Below, in pieces: positions 3,220-45,165 of a stretch of 55,398 nucleotides of DNA. Made by a program: the position numbers and the translations under genes. The notes under the pieces are model-generated. The model worked only from the letters and a program-made list of their open reading frames with translations, was not told the origin of the DNA and did no database searches. The DNA lies in NCBI GenBank assembly GCA_944350445.1, contig CALVOW010000007.1, positions 1-55,398 of the forward strand, written 5' to 3'. Each line of letters begins with the position of its first letter. Positions within the stretch are counted from its first letter, which is position 1. This DNA comes from an uncultured Bacilli bacterium. GTDB taxonomy: Bacteria; Bacillota_I; Bacilli_A; RF39; UBA660.

Positions 3220-3788
3220 AAATAATTTTAGCTTCAAATTCTAAACGTCGCCAAGAACTTTTAAAAATGCTGAATTTGTCTTATGAAATAGTTGTAAGTA
3301 AAAAGGAAGAAATTCAAGATGATAACTTAACACCTTTAGAAAATTGTTTTAATATTAGTTTAGCAAAGGGAAAAGATGTTTTAGAAAAAACAAGTGGTGA
3401 TCGTATCATTATTTCTTGTGATACCATTGTTGTTAAAGATAATAAAATATATGGAAAACCTAAAAATAGGGAAGAAGCCTACAATATGTTAAAAACATTT
3501 AGTGGAACAAGTCATGAGGTTTTATCTTGTTTAACAGTTATTAAAGTTTTGAATGACCAAGAAAAAATATTTAAAGATTATGGAAAAGCTTCGGTTTATA
3601 TTGACTTAATGAGTGATTTTGAAATATATGATTGGATTGATAAAAGTAATCCTTATGATAAAGCTGGGGCTTATGCAATTCAAGAAGAATTTGGAAAATA
3701 TATTACAAAAATTGAAGGCGATTTTTATACAATTGTTGGTCTACCAATTAATAAATTATATCGAATTTTAAAAGAAATAATGGATTAA
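3216..3788 (+). CDS. maf: Maf-like nucleotide pyrophosphatase
   Basis: This is a 190-aa protein of the Maf/YhdE family, which are house-cleaning pyrophosphatases acting on non-canonical or modified dTTP/UTP-type nucleotides; B. subtilis Maf is linked to septum formation. The N-terminal SNSKRRQELL motif matches the family S-x-R-R signature. The SCDTIVV segment carries the conserved catalytic aspartate and DKAGAYAIQ is also typical. Its ATG overlaps the TSCPD stop codon, so it is probably the second gene of a two-gene operon. Confidence 0.93.
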   Translation: MKIILASNSKRRQELLKMLNLSYEIVVSKKEEIQDDNLTPLENCFNISLAKGKDVLEKTSGDRIIISCDTIVVKDNKIYGKPKNREEAYNMLKTFSGTSHEVLSCLTVIKVLNDQEKIFKDYGKASVYIDLMSDFEIYDWIDKSNPYDKAGAYAIQEEFGKYITKIEGDFYTIVGLPINKLYRILKEIMD

Positions 3789-4041: not shown

Positions 4042-5763
4042 ATGTCATTTATTAAAGAAAAAGAAAAATTTATTGAAAATAAATTAAATGAATTAGGCTA
4101 TTTAAATGAAAGTGTGCAAATTTTACCTAGTAGCAAAAAAGAACTTGGTGATTTTCAAATTAATACAGCCATGATGTTAGCTAAAAAATATCATAAAAAT
4201 CCTATGGAAATTGCCAAAGAAATAACTTCATGTTTAGACTTGGAATTTGTTAATGTAAATATTGCTAATCCTGGTTTTATCAATTTTTCTTTTCAAGATG
4301 AAAGTTTATTAAATTATTTAAATAATGGTATTTTAAATTTTCAAAATTTATTTGATAAACATCCAGAAAAATTAATTTTTTTAGATTATGGGGGAGCTAA
4401 TGCTGCTAAAGCTTTGCATGTTGGTCATATGCGTTCAGCTAATATTGGCGAAGCTTTAAGAAGACTTTGTAATTTACTTGGCTATAAGACAATTTCTGAT
4501 GTGCATTTAGGAGATCTTGGACGTCAAGCTGGTATGTTAATTTCGGAAATTAAATTACGAAATCCTAATTTAGCGTTTTTTGATGAAAATTATCAAGGTG
4601 AATATGAAAAAGTTAATTATACTTCAAAAGATTTAGGAGAAATGTATGTAGCTGCCAATATTGCTGCTAATAAAGATCCAAAACGAATGGAAGAAGTCCG
4701 CGAAATTACAGCTGCTATTGATTCTGGAAATAAGAGATATTTAGCTTTATGGCGTCAATTAGTGGATATTTCATGTGTTGAAATAAAAAAAGTATATGAC
4801 GAATTAAATTGTCATTTTGATCTATTTGAAGGTGAATTAGATTCATTTAAAGATATTCCAGCAATGTTAGAAGTCGTTAACCCATTTCTTTATGAATCAA
4901 ATGGTGCCATGGTAATGGATGTTAAATTAGAAACTGATACCAAAGAAGTACCACCTTTAATTGTTATCAAAAAAGATGGAGCTACTATTTATGCAACAAG
5001 AGATTTAGCTACAATTTATTCAAGGGAGAAAAGATTTCATCCCGATGAAATTTGGTATGTGGTTGATTCAAGACAAGGCTTATATTTTGAACAAGTATTT
5101 CGGGCTTCCTATAAAGCTGGTTTAGTTAATGATAAGATAAAACTTTTACATTTAGGCTTTGGAACAATTAATGGTAGTGATGGAAAACCATATAAAACAA
5201 GAGATGGAGGAGTAATGGAGTTAGGCTCTTTAATTGATTTAATTGGGATAGAAATTGAGGCAAAGATTAAAGAAGAAATTCAAGAAAACCGCGAAGAAAT
5301 AAAAAATAAATTAACAATCGCTACTTTAAAATTTGCTGATTTAATGAGTAATCGTCAAACTGATTATATTTTTGATCCAGTTAAATTTTCTTCTTTTGAT
5401 GGTAAAACGGGTCCTTATATTTTGTATACAAGTGTACGTTTAAAATCAATTCTTAATAAGAGCGAAGCTACAAATTATCAAATAACGACGATAAATAATC
5501 AAGAAATGAAAAATATTTTTCTAAAAATCTTAGAAATTTCCAATGTTTTAAACAGAAGTTTTCAAGACAAAAGTTTAAATTATATAACTGATTTCTTATT
5601 TGATTTAGCTAGTTTATTTAATAAATTCTATAATAATTACCATATTTTAACGGAGCCTGATATAAAAATTAAAAATTCTTATCTTGGAATGACAAAATTA
5701 GTTTCCAATGTAATTAGTAATCTTTTAAATGTTCTTGCCATAGATGAAGTAGATAAGATGTAA
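4042..5763 (+). CDS. argS: Arginyl-tRNA synthetase
   Basis: This class I synthetase (573 aa) charges tRNA-Arg. The N-terminal additional domain (about residues 1-100) includes GDFQINTAM. The HIGH motif appears as HVGH in KALHVGHMRSAN near residue 130. The KMSK position is replaced by the KTRDGG loop in GKPYKTRDGG, as is normal for ArgS. The C-terminal all-helical anticodon-binding domain begins around residue 450. An AAGGAGGAA ribosome site precedes the ATG. Expression is controlled by the Arg-specific T-box directly upstream. Confidence 0.97.
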   Translation: MSFIKEKEKFIENKLNELGYLNESVQILPSSKKELGDFQINTAMMLAKKYHKNPMEIAKEITSCLDLEFVNVNIANPGFINFSFQDESLLNYLNNGILNFQNLFDKHPEKLIFLDYGGANAAKALHVGHMRSANIGEALRRLCNLLGYKTISDVHLGDLGRQAGMLISEIKLRNPNLAFFDENYQGEYEKVNYTSKDLGEMYVAANIAANKDPKRMEEVREITAAIDSGNKRYLALWRQLVDISCVEIKKVYDELNCHFDLFEGELDSFKDIPAMLEVVNPFLYESNGAMVMDVKLETDTKEVPPLIVIKKDGATIYATRDLATIYSREKRFHPDEIWYVVDSRQGLYFEQVFRASYKAGLVNDKIKLLHLGFGTINGSDGKPYKTRDGGVMELGSLIDLIGIEIEAKIKEEIQENREEIKNKLTIATLKFADLMSNRQTDYIFDPVKFSSFDGKTGPYILYTSVRLKSILNKSEATNYQITTINNQEMKNIFLKILEISNVLNRSFQDKSLNYITDFLFDLASLFNKFYNNYHILTEPDIKIKNSYLGMTKLVSNVISNLLNVLAIDEVDKM

Positions 5764-33620: not shown

Positions 33621-33649
33621 TTGAAAAATACTTAAAATTATAGTAAAAT
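33621..33649 (+). promoter_or_regulatory. Promoter of leader copy 1
   Basis: TTGAAA (33621-33626) and TAAAAT (33644-33649) are separated by 17 nt. Leader copy 2 has the same arrangement with TTGAAT. The predicted start is about 20 nt before the leader-peptide ATG. Confidence 0.65.
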
Positions 33650-33760
33650 AAAAGAGTAAATTAGAAGGGTAGTTGATGAATATGTTAAATAATTCAAGAA
33701 ATAAAGTTAACTCTATGTCAACCACGGGGGGGGGCTAAACCGCCTAAGTTTTTCTAATTT
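33643..33760 (+). repeat. Leader repeat, copy 1
   Basis: This segment is near-identical to 42381-42498. The roughly 80 bases from the -10 region to the base before the G-run are the same, as are the bases after the G-run through CTAAACCGCC. Only the G-run edge differs: nine G then C here, eight G then TC in copy 2, with equal total length. Confidence 0.92.
33676..33738 (+). CDS. Putative leader peptide with poly-Gly end (copy 1)
   Basis: This 20-codon ORF begins MNMLNNSRNK and ends STTGGG, with TAA at 33736-33738 right after the run of nine G (33726-33734). AGAAGGG is placed 6-7 nt before the ATG; a second ATG is at 33682. GGG codons are rare in this AT-rich sequence, so ribosomes could stall there. 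One added G would shift reading into a longer frame that ends inside the loop of the terminator at 33783-33828. The same ORF is preserved in copy 2. Confidence 0.5.
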   Translation: MNMLNNSRNKVNSMSTTGGG

Positions 33761-33782
33761 TCTAAGAAATAGTAATAAAGTT

Positions 33783-33828
33783 AAACACTTAGAACTAGTA
33801 TGTAAATACTAGGTTTTAAGTGTTTTTT
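33783..33828 (+). terminator. Leader attenuator terminator (copy 1)
   Basis: AAACACTTA plus CTAGTA pairs with TACTAG plus TAAGTGTTT, with a small internal loop and a TGTAAA apical loop, followed by T6. It lies between the leader peptide and the 33866 gene, so it should end most transcripts unless antitermination occurs. Confidence 0.85.
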
Positions 33829-33865
33829 CATTTATTATTTTAATTAATAAAAAGAGGGAAGAAAT

Positions 33866-36430
33866 ATGCCAAAGAAAAAGATAATAATAAGTTTAATTAT
33901 TATATTAGTATTAGTAATAACAATTGGAATAAGTTATAGTATTTTTAATTTTTTAGGAATTGGTTCAGGAAATCAAGTAGCTATAACTGGAGATATTTAT
34001 ATGCATTATAATGGATCAGATACGATTACTTTAACTAATATGATACCAATGTCAGAAAGTGAAGCGTTAGCAAGAACTGATAATGTTTTTAATTTTACAA
34101 TAACTGGCAAAAATACTAGTAATAAAGATATTTATTATGGTATTTACTTAGAAGAAGGAGCTGAACAAACTGGAAAAACAAGAATAAAACCAAGTGATGT
34201 AATGGTTTATTTAGAAAGTGATGGCGATAAGTTAGTAAACTCACTTCGTTATCAAGATTTTACTAATCATATTTATGTTGATATGATTCCAGCTAATACA
34301 AATCAAGAAATAAGTAAAAATTATAGTTTAAGAGTATGGCTAAGGGAAGGAATAATTGTCAGTGATACCGAAAGTAATGCTAGTTATACAACTGAGGAAT
34401 GGGCAAATGCCTATTTAAGTTTAAAAGTAAGAGTTGATGGAAATTTAGAAAGTATGAATATGCCTCTTATGGTTGAAAATAATGAAACCTTTGTTGAGAA
34501 TAATAAAGCCTATTTAATAGTTAATATTAAAAACTATGAAAATCCTAATGAAGAAGGTGAAATGTTAACTGAAAATGATGAAATGAAGTTAGAAATAAGT
34601 GGAACTAACTCCGATGTAGTATTTTCTTATAAAGATAGTTTAGGTAATGAAGTAACAGATACAAGTGATACTTTAATCTTAAATTATTCTTTAAACAGAA
34701 AAACGAGTGTTGAAGTTCAAGTTTATGTAATTCCCAAAAATGATGCTAATAGTAATACAGATATAACGATAAAATTAACTAAAAATGGTACAGAAACTTA
34801 TCAAATAATTAAAAATATGAATGTAATGGGCAATAACTATTGTTTAAATAATGGCTTTAATAAACTAGGAGATTGTATCCTAGTCTCTGAGCATCAAACG
34901 GATAATGTTGAGACAGCAAAAACTCAGATAGCTGATAAAGGTTATCCAAATCTTGATGATACTGCTCCAAGTTATGCTTATGTTGAAGAAGTAACTAAAA
35001 ATGTAAATAATGCTTTTACATTACCAAATAATTATGATTATCTCTTTGCATCTAGTTACACTTTTGATCCAACAACTGGAAAATTTCGATTAACTGGAAG
35101 TATCATAACTGATACATTGAGTGATACTTATTTAAACTACTATACATGTGGAGCTTCATATGCTAGTGATGATAGTTGTTCAATAATTTATAAAATTTTA
35201 GGAACCAATGAAAGTTTACAACGAATAACCTTGGCTGACGTATATACATATAAAATTGTTAGCACCATTAGAAGTGAGCAAGGTTTATATGCGGTCGAAG
35301 ACGATTATGGTACTTCTTATATCTACCGAGGTGATGTTTTAAATAACAATGTTTATTTTGCAGGTTTTTACTGGAAAATAATTAGAATGAATGGAGATGG
35401 CTCAATCCGAATGATTTATAGTGGAACAACCCCAGATGCAACGGGAAATGCAGCTAGTATTAATAATACAAGGTATCCGTATAATAGTCATCATCCAGAT
35501 CCAACCTATGTCGGGTATATGTATGGTAAAGACTTTTCCCTTCATACAAGTGAAGAGACAACATATGATAATATATTAGCTTTGAATGAATATTATTTTG
35601 GATCTAGTTATGAGTTTGATGAAGAGACGGAAACATTTAAATTAACTGGGGATATTACGAGTGGAACATTCCGTGATATGAAAGAGAGTTTTGTTGATTA
35701 TCCTTATACTTGTAAAAATATAAATAGCACTGATTCGTGCCAAGTAATGATAAAAGTCAATAGTTATGTAAGTGAAAAAAGTGTTCGGGCACAATACATT
35801 TCTTATTCTTCTAATAGTTATGAAAGTACACTTACTAATGAATTTGATAGTGATGCAAAGATTGCAATAGATACATGGTATCAAACAAATATAGTAGGAA
35901 AGAATGATAGCGAAGGAAATTTATTAACAAATTATATAGTCGATGGCACCTTTTGTAATGATCGAACATTTGCCAGTTCAAATACTGGAAATGGTTATAG
36001 TTTAGTACCATATACTTTGTATTCAGCATTTAAGAGATTAAATTCAGATAGCAATAAAACAGCAACCTTAAAATGTTCTCAAGCAAGCGATAGATTTTCA
36101 ACGACGACTAGTCGTGGCAATGGTGATTTAACCTATCCTGTTGCCTTAATAACAGCTGATGAAGTAGCCTTAGCTGGTGGAAAAATTAATTTAAAAAATG
36201 AAAATTTTTATTTGCAAAGTAATTCTAATTTCTATACTATCACCCCATTTGATTTTGGAGCAAATTCTATCTATTCATTTGTATTTCAACTTAATTATCA
36301 AGGTGTATTAGAACCTTACAATGTTGCCAATGTTGTTGAACTTAGACCAGTTATCAATATTCGCTCCGATGTTTTAATCTCTCAAGGTGATGGAACAAGT
36401 GAAAATCCCTTTATTTTAAGTCTTAGTTAA
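33866..36430 (+). CDS. Large exported protein, paralog A, with C-type-lectin-like end
   Basis: This 854-aa protein has an N-terminal membrane anchor (about residues 6-28, KKKIIISLIIILVLVITIG). A conserved export-family region follows (GSGNQVAITGDIYMHYNG), then beta-rich domains. A long C-terminal region contains YIYRGDVLNNNVYFAGFYWKI and ends ELRPVINIRSDVLISQGDGTSENPFIL. The last part resembles C-type-lectin/FGE-like folds. Cysteine pairs occur around residues 426-436 and 618-627. The protein is about 80 percent identical by eye to paralog B (42592), except near residues 790-835. AGAGGGAAGAA precedes the ATG, and the poly-G leader and terminator precede the gene. Confidence 0.82.
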   Translation: MPKKKIIISLIIILVLVITIGISYSIFNFLGIGSGNQVAITGDIYMHYNGSDTITLTNMIPMSESEALARTDNVFNFTITGKNTSNKDIYYGIYLEEGAEQTGKTRIKPSDVMVYLESDGDKLVNSLRYQDFTNHIYVDMIPANTNQEISKNYSLRVWLREGIIVSDTESNASYTTEEWANAYLSLKVRVDGNLESMNMPLMVENNETFVENNKAYLIVNIKNYENPNEEGEMLTENDEMKLEISGTNSDVVFSYKDSLGNEVTDTSDTLILNYSLNRKTSVEVQVYVIPKNDANSNTDITIKLTKNGTETYQIIKNMNVMGNNYCLNNGFNKLGDCILVSEHQTDNVETAKTQIADKGYPNLDDTAPSYAYVEEVTKNVNNAFTLPNNYDYLFASSYTFDPTTGKFRLTGSIITDTLSDTYLNYYTCGASYASDDSCSIIYKILGTNESLQRITLADVYTYKIVSTIRSEQGLYAVEDDYGTSYIYRGDVLNNNVYFAGFYWKIIRMNGDGSIRMIYSGTTPDATGNAASINNTRYPYNSHHPDPTYVGYMYGKDFSLHTSEETTYDNILALNEYYFGSSYEFDEETETFKLTGDITSGTFRDMKESFVDYPYTCKNINSTDSCQVMIKVNSYVSEKSVRAQYISYSSNSYESTLTNEFDSDAKIAIDTWYQTNIVGKNDSEGNLLTNYIVDGTFCNDRTFASSNTGNGYSLVPYTLYSAFKRLNSDSNKTATLKCSQASDRFSTTTSRGNGDLTYPVALITADEVALAGGKINLKNENFYLQSNSNFYTITPFDFGANSIYSFVFQLNYQGVLEPYNVANVVELRPVINIRSDVLISQGDGTSENPFILSLS

Positions 36431-36492: not shown

Positions 36493-37215
36493 TTAGAAAT
36501 TTTTAATTTTATTTTTAATAATATTTTTATAACTTTTTGATAGTAAATGACATCTCTTATTGTTAAAAAAAGTTATTTTTTTATCTTTAAAATCAAAACT
36601 TATAACATTATTTAAATTTACAATACAAGCCCTATGAGTTCGAACAAAAAAATCACACTCTTTTTTTAATTTTTCCTCGATAAAATGCAAATTTTTACTA
36701 GTTTTAATAATGAAATTTGTTGTATGAATTAAAGTTTTTCTATTTTTTATTTCAACATATAAAATATCTTGAATTTTAATAACAAAAAAACTTGAAATGG
36801 TATTTATTTTTAAAACTTTTTCTAAAGCAAAATTATTAATTATTTCTTTTATTTTTAAATCTAAAATATCGATTTTACTTTTATCAATAAAGGCTAAAGC
36901 TTTTATTGAACTAGTTAAAAAATTACTAATATATTCTTCTTTAGAATAAGATGTTAAAATAATAATTTCTGATGTTTTATCAAAATTTCTAATTTTTCTA
37001 GCAACATCAATTCCATTTTCTGAATCTACTTCAATATCTAAAATATACACTTTATTTTCTAAATTTTGAAATACCATATTATAAAAACTTGTATTATAGT
37101 TAAGAAATTTATAAGTTTTGTAATTAATTGTACTATTAAATAATACCTTGTTTATTTTGTTTTCAACCTCATTTAGCCAAAAATTAAGATCATCTACAAT
37201 TATAAAGTTTATCAC
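36493..37215 (-). CDS. LytTR-family response regulator (AgrA/ComE-like)
   Basis: This 240-aa regulator has an N-terminal receiver domain with acidic VDD near the start, the phosphorylation aspartate in VYILDIEVD (near residue 61) and the TSYSKEE segment. The C-terminal LytTR DNA-binding domain has ILYVEIKNRKTLIHT and FVRTHRACIVNLNNVISFD. I choose GTG at 37215 because GGAGGAG stands directly before it; an ATG at 37242 would put that ribosome site inside the gene. No histidine kinase is nearby. A 22-codon ORF lies just upstream. Confidence 0.9.
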   Translation of the reverse strand: MINFIIVDDLNFWLNEVENKINKVLFNSTINYKTYKFLNYNTSFYNMVFQNLENKVYILDIEVDSENGIDVARKIRNFDKTSEIIILTSYSKEEYISNFLTSSIKALAFIDKSKIDILDLKIKEIINNFALEKVLKINTISSFFVIKIQDILYVEIKNRKTLIHTTNFIIKTSKNLHFIEEKLKKECDFFVRTHRACIVNLNNVISFDFKDKKITFFNNKRCHLLSKSYKNIIKNKIKNF

Positions 37216-37257
37216 AACTGCTCCTCCAAACTTTATTTTCAATGGTTCAATTTTTTA

Positions 37258-42358: not shown

Positions 42359-42387
42359 TTGAATAATTGAGATGTTTGTAGTAAAAT
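42359..42387 (+). promoter_or_regulatory. Promoter of leader copy 2
   Basis: TTGAAT (42359-42364) and TAAAAT (42382-42387) are separated by 17 nt, the same geometry as in copy 1. The -35 lies outside the identical block, so it has been kept or re-created independently. Confidence 0.65.
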
Positions 42388-42498
42388 AAAAGAGTAAATT
42401 AGAAGGGTAGTTGATGAATATGTTAAATAATTCAAGAAATAAAGTTAACTCTATGTCAACCATGGGGGGGGTCTAAACCGCCTAAGTTTTTCTAATTT
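42381..42498 (+). repeat. Leader repeat, copy 2
   Basis: This is the partner of 33643-33760. The identical block runs from the -10 region to the base before the G-run and resumes after it. The G-run itself is eight G followed by TC. Confidence 0.92.
42414..42476 (+). CDS. Putative leader peptide with poly-Gly end (copy 2)
   Basis: This is the same 20-codon ORF as copy 1, ending STMGGV, with TAA at 42474-42476. The G-run is 42464-42471. Total length and reading frame match copy 1 although the last codons differ (ACG becomes ATG; GGC becomes GTC). Confidence 0.5.
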   Translation: MNMLNNSRNKVNSMSTMGGV

Positions 42499-42520
42499 TC
42501 TAAGAAATAGTAATAATGTT

Positions 42521-42568
42521 AAACACTTAAAACTAGTACGCGAGTACTAGGTTTTAGGTGTTTTTTTT
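42521..42568 (+). terminator. Leader attenuator terminator (copy 2)
   Basis: AAACACTTA plus CTAGTAC pairs with GTACTAG plus TAGGTGTTT around a GCGA tetraloop, followed by T8. The stem is kept and the loop changed relative to copy 1, which suggests that the structure matters. Confidence 0.88.
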
Positions 42569-42591
42569 CATTTTAAAGAAGGGAAAGTAAT

Positions 42592-45165
42592 ATGAAAGAT
42601 AGAAAGAAAGTAATAAGTATTAGTTTAATAATAATTTTAATATTAGTAGTAACACTAGGAATAAGTTATAGCATTTTTAATTTTCTAGGAATTGGTTCAG
42701 GAAATCAAGTAGCTATAACTGGAGATATTTATATGCATTATAATGGATCAGACACAATTACTTTAAATAATATGGTACCGATGTCAGAAAGCGAAGCGTT
42801 AGCAAGAACTGATAATGTTTTTAATTTTACAATAACTGGCAAAAATACTAGTAATAAAGATATTTATTATGGTATTTACTTAGAAGAAGGAGCTGAACAA
42901 ACTGGAAAAACAAGAATAAAGCCAAGTGATGTAATGGTTTATTTAGAAAGTGATGGCGATAAGTTAGTAAACTCACTTCGTTATCAAGATTTTACTAATC
43001 ATATTTATGTTGATATGATTCCAGCTAATACAACTAATGAAATAAGTAAAAATTATAGTTTAAGAGTATGGCTAAGAGAAGGAATAATTGTTAGTGATAC
43101 TGAGGAAAGTGCTAGTTATACAACTGAAGAGTGGGCAAATGCCTATTTAAGTTTAAAAGTAAGAGTTGATGGCAATTTAGAAAGTATGAATATGCCTCTT
43201 ATGGTTGAAAATAATGAAACCTTTGTTGAGAATAATAAAGCTTATTTAATAGTTAATCTTAAAAACTATGAAAATCCTAATGAAAAAAATGAAATATTAA
43301 CTGAAAATGATGAAATGAAGTTAGAAATAAGTGGAACAAACTCTGATGTTGTATTTTCTTATAAAGATAGTTTAGGTAATGAAGTAACCGAAACAAGTGA
43401 GACGTTAACATTAAATTATTCCTTAAATAAAAAAACGAGTGTTGAAGTCCAAGTTTATGTTATACCGAAAAATGATGCTAATAGTAATACAGATGTAACA
43501 GTTAAATTAACCAAAAATGATACAGAAACTTATCAAATAATTAAAAATATGGACATTATGGGCAATAACTATTGTTTAAACAATGGCTTTAATAAATTAG
43601 GAGATTGTATTTTAGTATCGGACCATCAAACTGATAATATAGAAACAGCGAAGACCCAAATAGCTGATAAGGGAGAACCAAATTTAAATGATACAGCTCC
43701 AAGTTATACATATTTAGAAGAAACAACAACAAATGTTAGTAATGCTTATACAGCCCCAAGTGGTTATAAATGTTACTTTGGAACGGGCTTTGAATTTAAT
43801 GCCACCAACGGAACATTTAGATTAACCGGTGATATTATAACCGATACAATAAGTGATACTTATTTAAATTACTATACTTGTGGTGGAACAAATAGAGGAA
43901 ATAGTGGTTGCTCGACAATTTATAAAATCTTAGAAACTGATGAAAGTTTACAAAAAATAACCCTAGCAGATGTTATAACATATAAAATAGCAAGTACTAT
44001 CAGAAGTGAAGTGGGATTATATGCCGTCGAAGACGATTATGGAACTTCTTATATTTACCGAGGCGATGTTTTAAATAATAATGTTTATTTTGCGGGTTTT
44101 TACTGGAAGATAATTCGTATGAATGGCGATGGTTCAATCCGTATGATTTATAGCGGAACCACCCCAGATGCCATCGGAAGTGCAACTAGTATTAATAATA
44201 CAACTTATCAATATAATAGCCATTATCCTGATCCAACTTATGTTGGTTATATGTATGGCAAGGAATTTTCCCTTCATACAAGCAATGAAACTAATTATGC
44301 AAGTATAGAACCTTTAACTAAATATTATTTTGGTTCTAATTACGAATTTGATGAGGCGACCGAGACGTTTAAAATAACGGGTTCTATTACCAGTGGAACA
44401 TTTAGTGAAATGCAGGATAAGTTTGGCGATTATCCTTATACATGCAATAATATGAATAGTACTGATTCTTGCCAAGTAATTATAAAAGTCAATAGTTATG
44501 TAAACGAATCCGAAGTTATAGCACAGTATATTTCTTATTCTTCCAATAGTTATGAAAGCACGATTACTAATGAGTTTGATAGTGATGCAAAGGTTGCATT
44601 AGATGCATGGTATCAGACTAACTTTGTAGATAAGAGTGATAGTCAAGGTAATTTACTAACCAATTATATCGTTGATGGAACTTTTTGTAATGATAGAACA
44701 TTTGCAAGTGATAATACTGGTGATGGTTATAGTTTAGTACCAACAACTTTATATTCAGCTTATAAAAGATTGGATTCGGATACTAATAAAACGGCGACTT
44801 TAAAATGCAGTCAAGATGTTGATAAATTTTCAACGACACCGAGCCGCGGGAATGGCGATTTAACCTATCCAATAGCTTTAATAACAGCTGATGAAGTAGC
44901 TTTATCTGGTGGACGAGAAGGTTTAAAAAATGAAGAATATTATTTGCAAGCAAATGGTTATTATTATACAATGACACCTCATGATTTTCGAACTAGAAAT
45001 GCTCGTGCCTATGTGTATTCCATTTATCCAACAGGTGAGTTAGGTGCTGGATTGTACATTACAGCCGCTTATTTGCTAAGACCAGTTATCAATCTTCGAT
45101 CTGATGTCCTAATTTCCCAAGGAGATGGTACTATAGAAAATCCATTTATATTAGATTTAGCTTAA
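42592..45165 (+). CDS. Large exported protein, paralog B, with C-type-lectin-like end
   Basis: This 857-aa protein shares its domain order with paralog A: anchor (SLIIILILVVTLG), GSGNQVAITGDIYMHYNG, beta-rich domains, YIYRGDVLNNNVYFAGFYWKI and the ending LLRPVINLRSDVLISQGDGT. It differs most near residues 790-840, where paralog A has DFGANSIYSFVFQLNYQG and this has DFRTRNARAYVYSIYPTG. AGAAGGGAAAGTA precedes the ATG. It lies behind its own copy of the poly-G leader and terminator. Confidence 0.82.
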   Translation: MKDRKKVISISLIIILILVVTLGISYSIFNFLGIGSGNQVAITGDIYMHYNGSDTITLNNMVPMSESEALARTDNVFNFTITGKNTSNKDIYYGIYLEEGAEQTGKTRIKPSDVMVYLESDGDKLVNSLRYQDFTNHIYVDMIPANTTNEISKNYSLRVWLREGIIVSDTEESASYTTEEWANAYLSLKVRVDGNLESMNMPLMVENNETFVENNKAYLIVNLKNYENPNEKNEILTENDEMKLEISGTNSDVVFSYKDSLGNEVTETSETLTLNYSLNKKTSVEVQVYVIPKNDANSNTDVTVKLTKNDTETYQIIKNMDIMGNNYCLNNGFNKLGDCILVSDHQTDNIETAKTQIADKGEPNLNDTAPSYTYLEETTTNVSNAYTAPSGYKCYFGTGFEFNATNGTFRLTGDIITDTISDTYLNYYTCGGTNRGNSGCSTIYKILETDESLQKITLADVITYKIASTIRSEVGLYAVEDDYGTSYIYRGDVLNNNVYFAGFYWKIIRMNGDGSIRMIYSGTTPDAIGSATSINNTTYQYNSHYPDPTYVGYMYGKEFSLHTSNETNYASIEPLTKYYFGSNYEFDEATETFKITGSITSGTFSEMQDKFGDYPYTCNNMNSTDSCQVIIKVNSYVNESEVIAQYISYSSNSYESTITNEFDSDAKVALDAWYQTNFVDKSDSQGNLLTNYIVDGTFCNDRTFASDNTGDGYSLVPTTLYSAYKRLDSDTNKTATLKCSQDVDKFSTTPSRGNGDLTYPIALITADEVALSGGREGLKNEEYYLQANGYYYTMTPHDFRTRNARAYVYSIYPTGELGAGLYITAAYLLRPVINLRSDVLISQGDGTIENPFILDLA

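Follow-up and report, generated by a model that had tools for sequence, protein, structure and literature searches.

The locus considered here lies in a window of 55,398 nucleotides (contig CALVOW010000007.1 of assembly GCA_944350445.1, forward strand), which is the whole stretch of DNA that was analyzed and to which all coordinates refer unless another contig is named. It belongs to a genome of 1.34 Mb in 46 contigs (G000). A predicted sigma-70 promoter on the plus strand (TTGAAA-17-TAAAAT; 33621–33649) is followed by a Shine-Dalgarno sequence (AGAAGGG; 33663–33669), kept as AGAARGG in most of the paralogs described below, and then by a leader ORF that starts with ATG and comprises 20 codons and a TAA stop (MNMLNNSRNKVNSMSTTGGG*; 33676–33738). 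Within that ORF are a pair of half-sites (GTTAAC-N5-GTCAAC, conforming to GTYRAC-N5-GTYRAC; 33706–33722) and, coupled to them, a run of nine G residues (33726–33734) that we propose to act as a switch. The stop codon (33736–33738) is located approximately 45 nucleotides 5′ of an intrinsic terminator (33783–33828), made up of a hairpin (33783–33825) and six T residues (T tract 33823–33828). Folding gives the hairpin about −21 kcal/mol; a consensus terminator scan missed it because its stem is AT-rich and bulged. Beyond the terminator, still on the plus strand, is a gene for an 854-residue exported surface protein (33866–36430) whose paralogous family is hypervariable at the C-terminus and which gave no Pfam match.

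An earlier, sequence-only reading of this region had described the promoter, the 20-codon ORF with its ribosome site, the G9 run followed by a stop, the terminator and the 854-residue gene, all of which are present. It had further suggested that adding a single G would extend translation into the terminator, and we confirmed this: with one G added, the leader would end at a TAG (33810–33812; offset 75 past the G-run) inside the terminator hairpin. We refer to that phase as ON, and to the present one as OFF.

A second complete copy of the element is found in the same window (42376–42573, plus strand). It contains a leader ORF in the OFF phase (MNMLNNSRNKVNSMSTMGGV*; 42414–42476), the paired half-site motif (42444–42460), a G8 tract (42464–42471) and an intrinsic terminator with hairpin and T tract (42521–42570), and it precedes a gene for an 857-residue surface protein (42592–45165). 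The window also contains a LytTR-type response regulator gene (36493–37242, minus strand), which faces the first surface-protein gene from directly downstream, and a T-box leader (Rfam RF00230; 3834–4007, plus strand) located 5′ of an ORF at 4042.

Copies of the element in the genome and across the genus

A nucleotide search recovered approximately 16 homologous copies of the element in G000 (roughly 79–94% identity). The TTG of the −35 element and the −10 element are kept across these paralogous leaders despite differing surrounding sequence; this retention amid divergence, together with the number of copies, argues that the layout in the window is not due to chance. Wherever enough sequence is present, each G000 copy is followed by a gene for an exported protein, in most cases about 855 residues long. 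Many G000 contigs terminate at or close to the element, as expected of a repeat that breaks the assembly. One leader (L020) is split, with the motif and a G10 run fused to a 68-residue ORF and the terminator half about 500 nucleotides away (pieces at contig C6, 46932–47052 and 47487–47611), as though the element had been rearranged or had received an insertion.

A pattern search for GTYRAC-N5-GTYRAC-N3-G6 gave matches in seven of 386 sampled genomes of the family, and a related pattern with three mismatches allowed was found in 10 of 17 members of the genus. Five more members (G002, G007, G014, G015 and G016) contain a leader, G-run and terminator with other 6-mer pairs before the tract: GTTRAG-N5-CTCAAC in G002 and G014, TTGACA-N5-TTGACA in G016, CTTTACA-N3-CTTTACA in G015 and CTTTACATGTCAAC in G007. 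The design is found in 15 of the 17 species examined, and the other two (G001 and G011) contain no G8 run anywhere. Among the at least 80 matches listed from a GTDB-wide scan, all but seven were gut MAGs, nearly all titled Bacilli; the seven exceptions came from unrelated genomes, GC-rich or distant, and we set them aside as chance matches. The viral contigs searched contained no match to the pattern.

The targets located downstream are exported proteins, acyltransferases, one Wzz-like protein and one SGNH-like protein. The sequence-only reading had considered a surface protein an odd target, but surface proteins are the usual targets of phase variation; that reading also missed the multicopy, genus-wide nature of the element and the paired motif beside its G-run.

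Reach of the leader ORF in the three phases

For each leader we added zero, one or two G residues and recorded the position of the ORF stop, with a phase defined as ‘reaching’ if that stop lay no more than 5 nucleotides short of the terminator 5′ arm, or past it. At least one phase reaches the arm in all 63 leaders with a detectable terminator, and the remaining two phases stop more than 12 nucleotides before it in 59 of the 63. Exactly one reaching phase was found in 23 of 25 sequence clusters (11.1 ± 2.4, maximum 19, when the sequence separating tract from 5′ arm was dinucleotide-shuffled 1000 times), and at least one in 25 of 25 (shuffles 12.9 ± 2.4, maximum 21). An earlier version of the comparison, using 34 clusters and a fixed 40-nucleotide criterion, gave 32 versus 19.7 ± 2.9. 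Five sister species whose flanks differ follow the same one-phase rule, and their ON stop codons often lie directly against the 5′ arm (−1 to −5 nucleotides); the loosest case in those species, L234 of G002, stops 11 nucleotides short. As far as sequence signals indicate, the simple-sequence tract lies inside a putative leader ORF that has a promoter and a ribosome site of its own.

These features are consistent with a phase-variable transcription attenuator, in which slippage of the G tract would set whether a translating ribosome blocks the terminator, and we consider this explanation highly probable. That the leader is instead a structured RNA (a riboswitch or protein-binding RNA), with an incidental ORF, seems to us extremely improbable: although it folds more stably than its shuffles (z −3.2, largely due to the terminator), an Rfam search of the leader at gathering and permissive thresholds returned no family, the best low-threshold matches being at chance level, and conservation across species is limited to the paired 6-mers and the G-run, with the open frame into the terminator kept.

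G tracts in gene starts and promoter spacers

The motif and tract also occur outside such leaders. At L097/L193 (an acyltransferase), L102 and L068/L202 they are located within the first codons of a gene, such that another phase gives the gene, and L241–L243 of G005 apparently have the same arrangement. These gene-start tracts appear from their sequence to represent ordinary translational phase variation. L241, L242 and L243 are three neighboring gene starts (G005, contig C1, 37650–43850), each with G8–G11 in its first codons and one of them acyltransferase-like; they apparently form a phase-variable surface cluster.

Another genus, g113, has a promoter form, GTTAACAAAAA-GTTGACR-T-G8/9-YARTTT-TATAAT, with a spacer of 15 or 16. 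Where this form was seen (G135 and G413; L109, L110, L112, L114–L119, L133 and L141), the motif and a G8 or G9 run serve as the −35 element and spacer, and the TATAAT promoters of G135 and G413 that carry motif and tract stand 5′ of surface-protein genes.

Differences in tract length and phase

G-run lengths range from 8 to 12 among near-identical paralogs, some of which are ON and most OFF; these are differences between paralogs and between MAG consensus sequences. Near-identical leaders that differ in G count (by 1–4 G) include L161 (G9) and L172 (G8), L012 (G9) and L016 (G8), L211 and L212 of G007 (9 and 10), a set in G016 with 8, 9, 10 and 12, and the pairs L151/L149 and L110/L112, which differ by one or more G. 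Variation of the tract within a population is presumed from such comparisons, because the sequences are MAG consensus. The G9 run of the window is of a different origin. Most paralogs have G8, the other intact copies ending in G8-TC-TAA, and the ninth G reflects a T-to-G substitution with no G added; its reading phase is therefore the same as in the G8 copies, and pairs that involve it were left out of the length comparison because of that substitution.

The current phases of 72 elements (a count that takes in a few elements at gene starts and one promoter element assigned in error) comprise 50 that are OFF and need one more G, 17 that are ON and five that need two. The ON copies in G000 are found on contigs C28 (L012) and C31 (L019), both with G9, and both copies in the window are OFF. 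A length of 8–12 places these homopolymers near the bottom of the range for fast phase variation. Because all 17 genomes contain MutS, we rejected the idea that the tract is unstable simply through lost mismatch repair.

The sequence-only reading had offered three models for the leader: stalling of ribosomes on rare GGG codons, slippage of DNA or RNA polymerase in the G-run, and ribosomal frameshifting. Comparison between paralogs and species strongly supports phase variation by slippage of the G-run, acting on the terminator; a fixed frameshift is disfavored because the copies occupy different phases. A broader form of that idea, in which RNA polymerase slippage or a −1 ribosomal frameshift on a constant G-run yields readthrough at a constant fraction in all cells, draws on the presence of a possible slippery heptamer (GGGGGGG) and on the 50 of 72 copies that are in the phase a −1 slip would open. 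We nevertheless judge it unlikely, given that copies are found in all three phases, that near-identical leaders differ in phase in both G015 and G016, and that in g113 the motif and G-run occupy an untranscribed promoter spacer, beyond the reach of either kind of slippage. RNA-polymerase slippage on the G-run could still operate in parallel with the DNA switch.

A paired motif coupled to the G tract

Among 45 non-redundant elements, the conserved parts are the two half-sites and the G-run, while the 5-nucleotide spacer and the flanks are not conserved; the elements were chosen by pattern, so that conservation of the half-sites is by construction and the unconserved spacer and flanks are the informative part. 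In G000, every exact occurrence of the motif (15/15) carries a G-run, and 16 of the 17 runs of at least eight G carry the motif or a one-base variant of it. The only G8 run in that genome without the motif (L210; contig C2, 44640–44647) is located just 5′ of a GGAGG ribosome site. The coupling is looser elsewhere, with one or two motifs lacking a G-run in each of G010, G008, G003 and G005.

Different leaders place the motif in different reading frames, all three being used. Together with the presence of the motif in the g113 promoters, this implies that it does not act as a peptide nor, in g113, as RNA, and the paired motif thus probably has a role at the level of DNA. An RNA hairpin formed by the two 6-mers was considered and rejected: the commonest pair contains an A–C mismatch, and the halves are direct repeats in G015 and G016.

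The same observations bear on classical attenuation, in which stalling on rare GGG (glycine) codons, or a nascent arrest peptide, would control an antiterminator. The layout of leader ORF and terminator is reminiscent of such systems, and a peptide ending in KVNxxSTxGG recurs. However, the three motif frames produce unrelated peptides (for example TCQHTVNHGGGY and KLTFCQLRGGV), and the motif is also found outside any ORF; conservation at the level of an arrest peptide was rejected on these grounds. Stalling on GGG, as the earlier reading had envisaged, is not supported for the same reason, and because two GGG codons lack an amino-acid logic: no target belongs to a glycine pathway, and the targets are surface proteins. 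One weak antiterminator pairing seemed possible by eye, but no dedicated antiterminator conserved across species was found. We regard classical attenuation as very improbable. Inspection of the G000 leaders by eye also suggested that changes in the segment following the G-run are compensated by changes in the 5′ arm of the terminator (CTAAG/CTTAG, TCGA/TTCGA and AACTT/AAGTT).

The phase-variable attenuator does not by itself account for the paired motif. One explanation, which concerns the motif only and is compatible with the attenuator, is that it regulates these genes as an ordinary operator, such as a direct repeat of the OmpR/PhoB type, and is irrelevant to slippage. The TTNAC-like half-sites, with a period of 10–11 bp in several species, do resemble OmpR/PhoB-type sites. 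Against an operator of this kind are the G-run that follows the motif in 15 of 15 exact G000 occurrences and the position of the motif 3′ of the promoter and within the leader; moreover, no OmpR-family regulator fully follows the distribution of the motif. One OmpR-family gene is present in each of G001 and G011 (which are without G8 runs) and two to four in nearly all the others; the best clade is absent from G002, G008 and G015, all of which have G-runs. We therefore rejected an OmpR-family regulator as the motif-binding factor, no single ortholog tracking the motif, and consider an ordinary operator rather doubtful.

A further suggestion, which we also regard as rather improbable, is that the paired 6-mer is the site of a dedicated protein that promotes or gates slippage of the adjacent homopolymer. 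Hypermutation would then be targeted to a regulon whose G-tract switches lie in leaders, in promoters and at the starts of genes, with the pair having diverged between species together with the protein.

Association with a DGR

G000 encodes a reverse transcriptase (contig C6, 41951–42679) with a template repeat beside it, the translation of which in this analysis gave TPSNFNAANANANVYNVNPTGELNQWNNVTNSNGVRA. The surrounding segment (L053:1–3729; contig C6, 40451–44179) contains the template repeat at 3440–3600 and a second, partly matching copy at 1030–1190. Variable repeats of two paralogs differ from the template almost only at adenines (16 of 16 mismatches in the paralog on C24 and 19 of 20 in that on C6), as in targets of diversity-generating retroelements (DGRs); divergence from this template repeat was too great for the two copies in the window to be scored. 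The DGR targets thus appear to be members of the surface-protein family, some of them also located behind the predicted attenuators.

Discussion

The multicopy design, the geometry in which one phase reaches the terminator and the differences in length between paralogs are established by sequence comparison. We infer that termination, occlusion by the ribosome and reversible switching would occur in the cell as follows. Transcription would begin at the promoter (33621–33649), and the leader ORF with its G-run would be translated behind RNA polymerase. With the tract in its present phase, the ribosome would halt just past the G-run, about 45 nucleotides before the terminator, allowing the hairpin to form and leaving the surface-protein gene OFF except for leak. 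Replication slippage that alters the G-run by one would open the leader frame to or into the terminator; the ribosome would then cover the 5′ arm, the hairpin would not form and the gene would be ON. With approximately 15 loci per genome switching independently, a mixed population of surface types would result.

To our knowledge, phase variation through a leader ORF and terminator has been known only from two pilus loci of one streptococcus. At the pil1 locus of S. gallolyticus, changes in a GCAGA repeat lengthen a leader peptide, and the ribosome on the lengthened leader disrupts a premature terminator, as proven genetically; the distance from stop to hairpin is about 39–49 bp in OFF leaders, and ON leaders end 4 bp ahead of the hairpin or inside it (Danne et al. 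2014; PMC3894217). The system described here resembles pil1/pil3 in having a repeat in a leader ORF predicted to be translated, the same OFF/ON stop geometry and a surface structure as target. It differs in using a G homopolymer rather than pentanucleotides, in its scale (about 15 loci per genome throughout the genus, rather than two pilus loci), in being known from sequence, and in the paired motif coupled to the tract and the DGR-target genes, which are found only here. A partial search of the literature found no other case combining a leader, a terminator and slipped-strand variation.

In Campylobacter and Neisseria, poly-G contingency loci (promoter spacers of the porA type among them) likewise place hypermutable G tracts at surface genes, either at the start of the coding sequence or in the promoter spacer, and both of those forms occur in this clade too. 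An attenuator is not the usual target of those tracts, and we know of no conserved motif beside them. The retroelement has the reverse transcriptase, template repeat and adenine-specific C-terminal variable repeats of DGR families such as that of Treponema denticola TvpA (PMC4891356). It differs in that some of its targets are also located behind predicted phase-variable attenuators, a combination for which our partial literature search found no report. The kind of mechanism is therefore already known from pil1; what is new is the homopolymer tract, the genome-wide scale, the DGR-diversified targets and the coupled paired 6-mer.

The switch is well supported by sequence, and its function in the cell is deduced from it. 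The most surprising part is the coupled motif, which makes testable whether homopolymer phase variation can be directed by a protein or arises from passive polymerase error. The rule that one phase reaches the terminator arm provides a means of finding such switches in metagenomes from sequence alone. Across this clade of uncultured gut bacteria, the element looks like the standard means of switching entire surface repertoires, and variation there would have two layers: the switch would vary which protein is made, and the retroelement would rewrite some of the same proteins.
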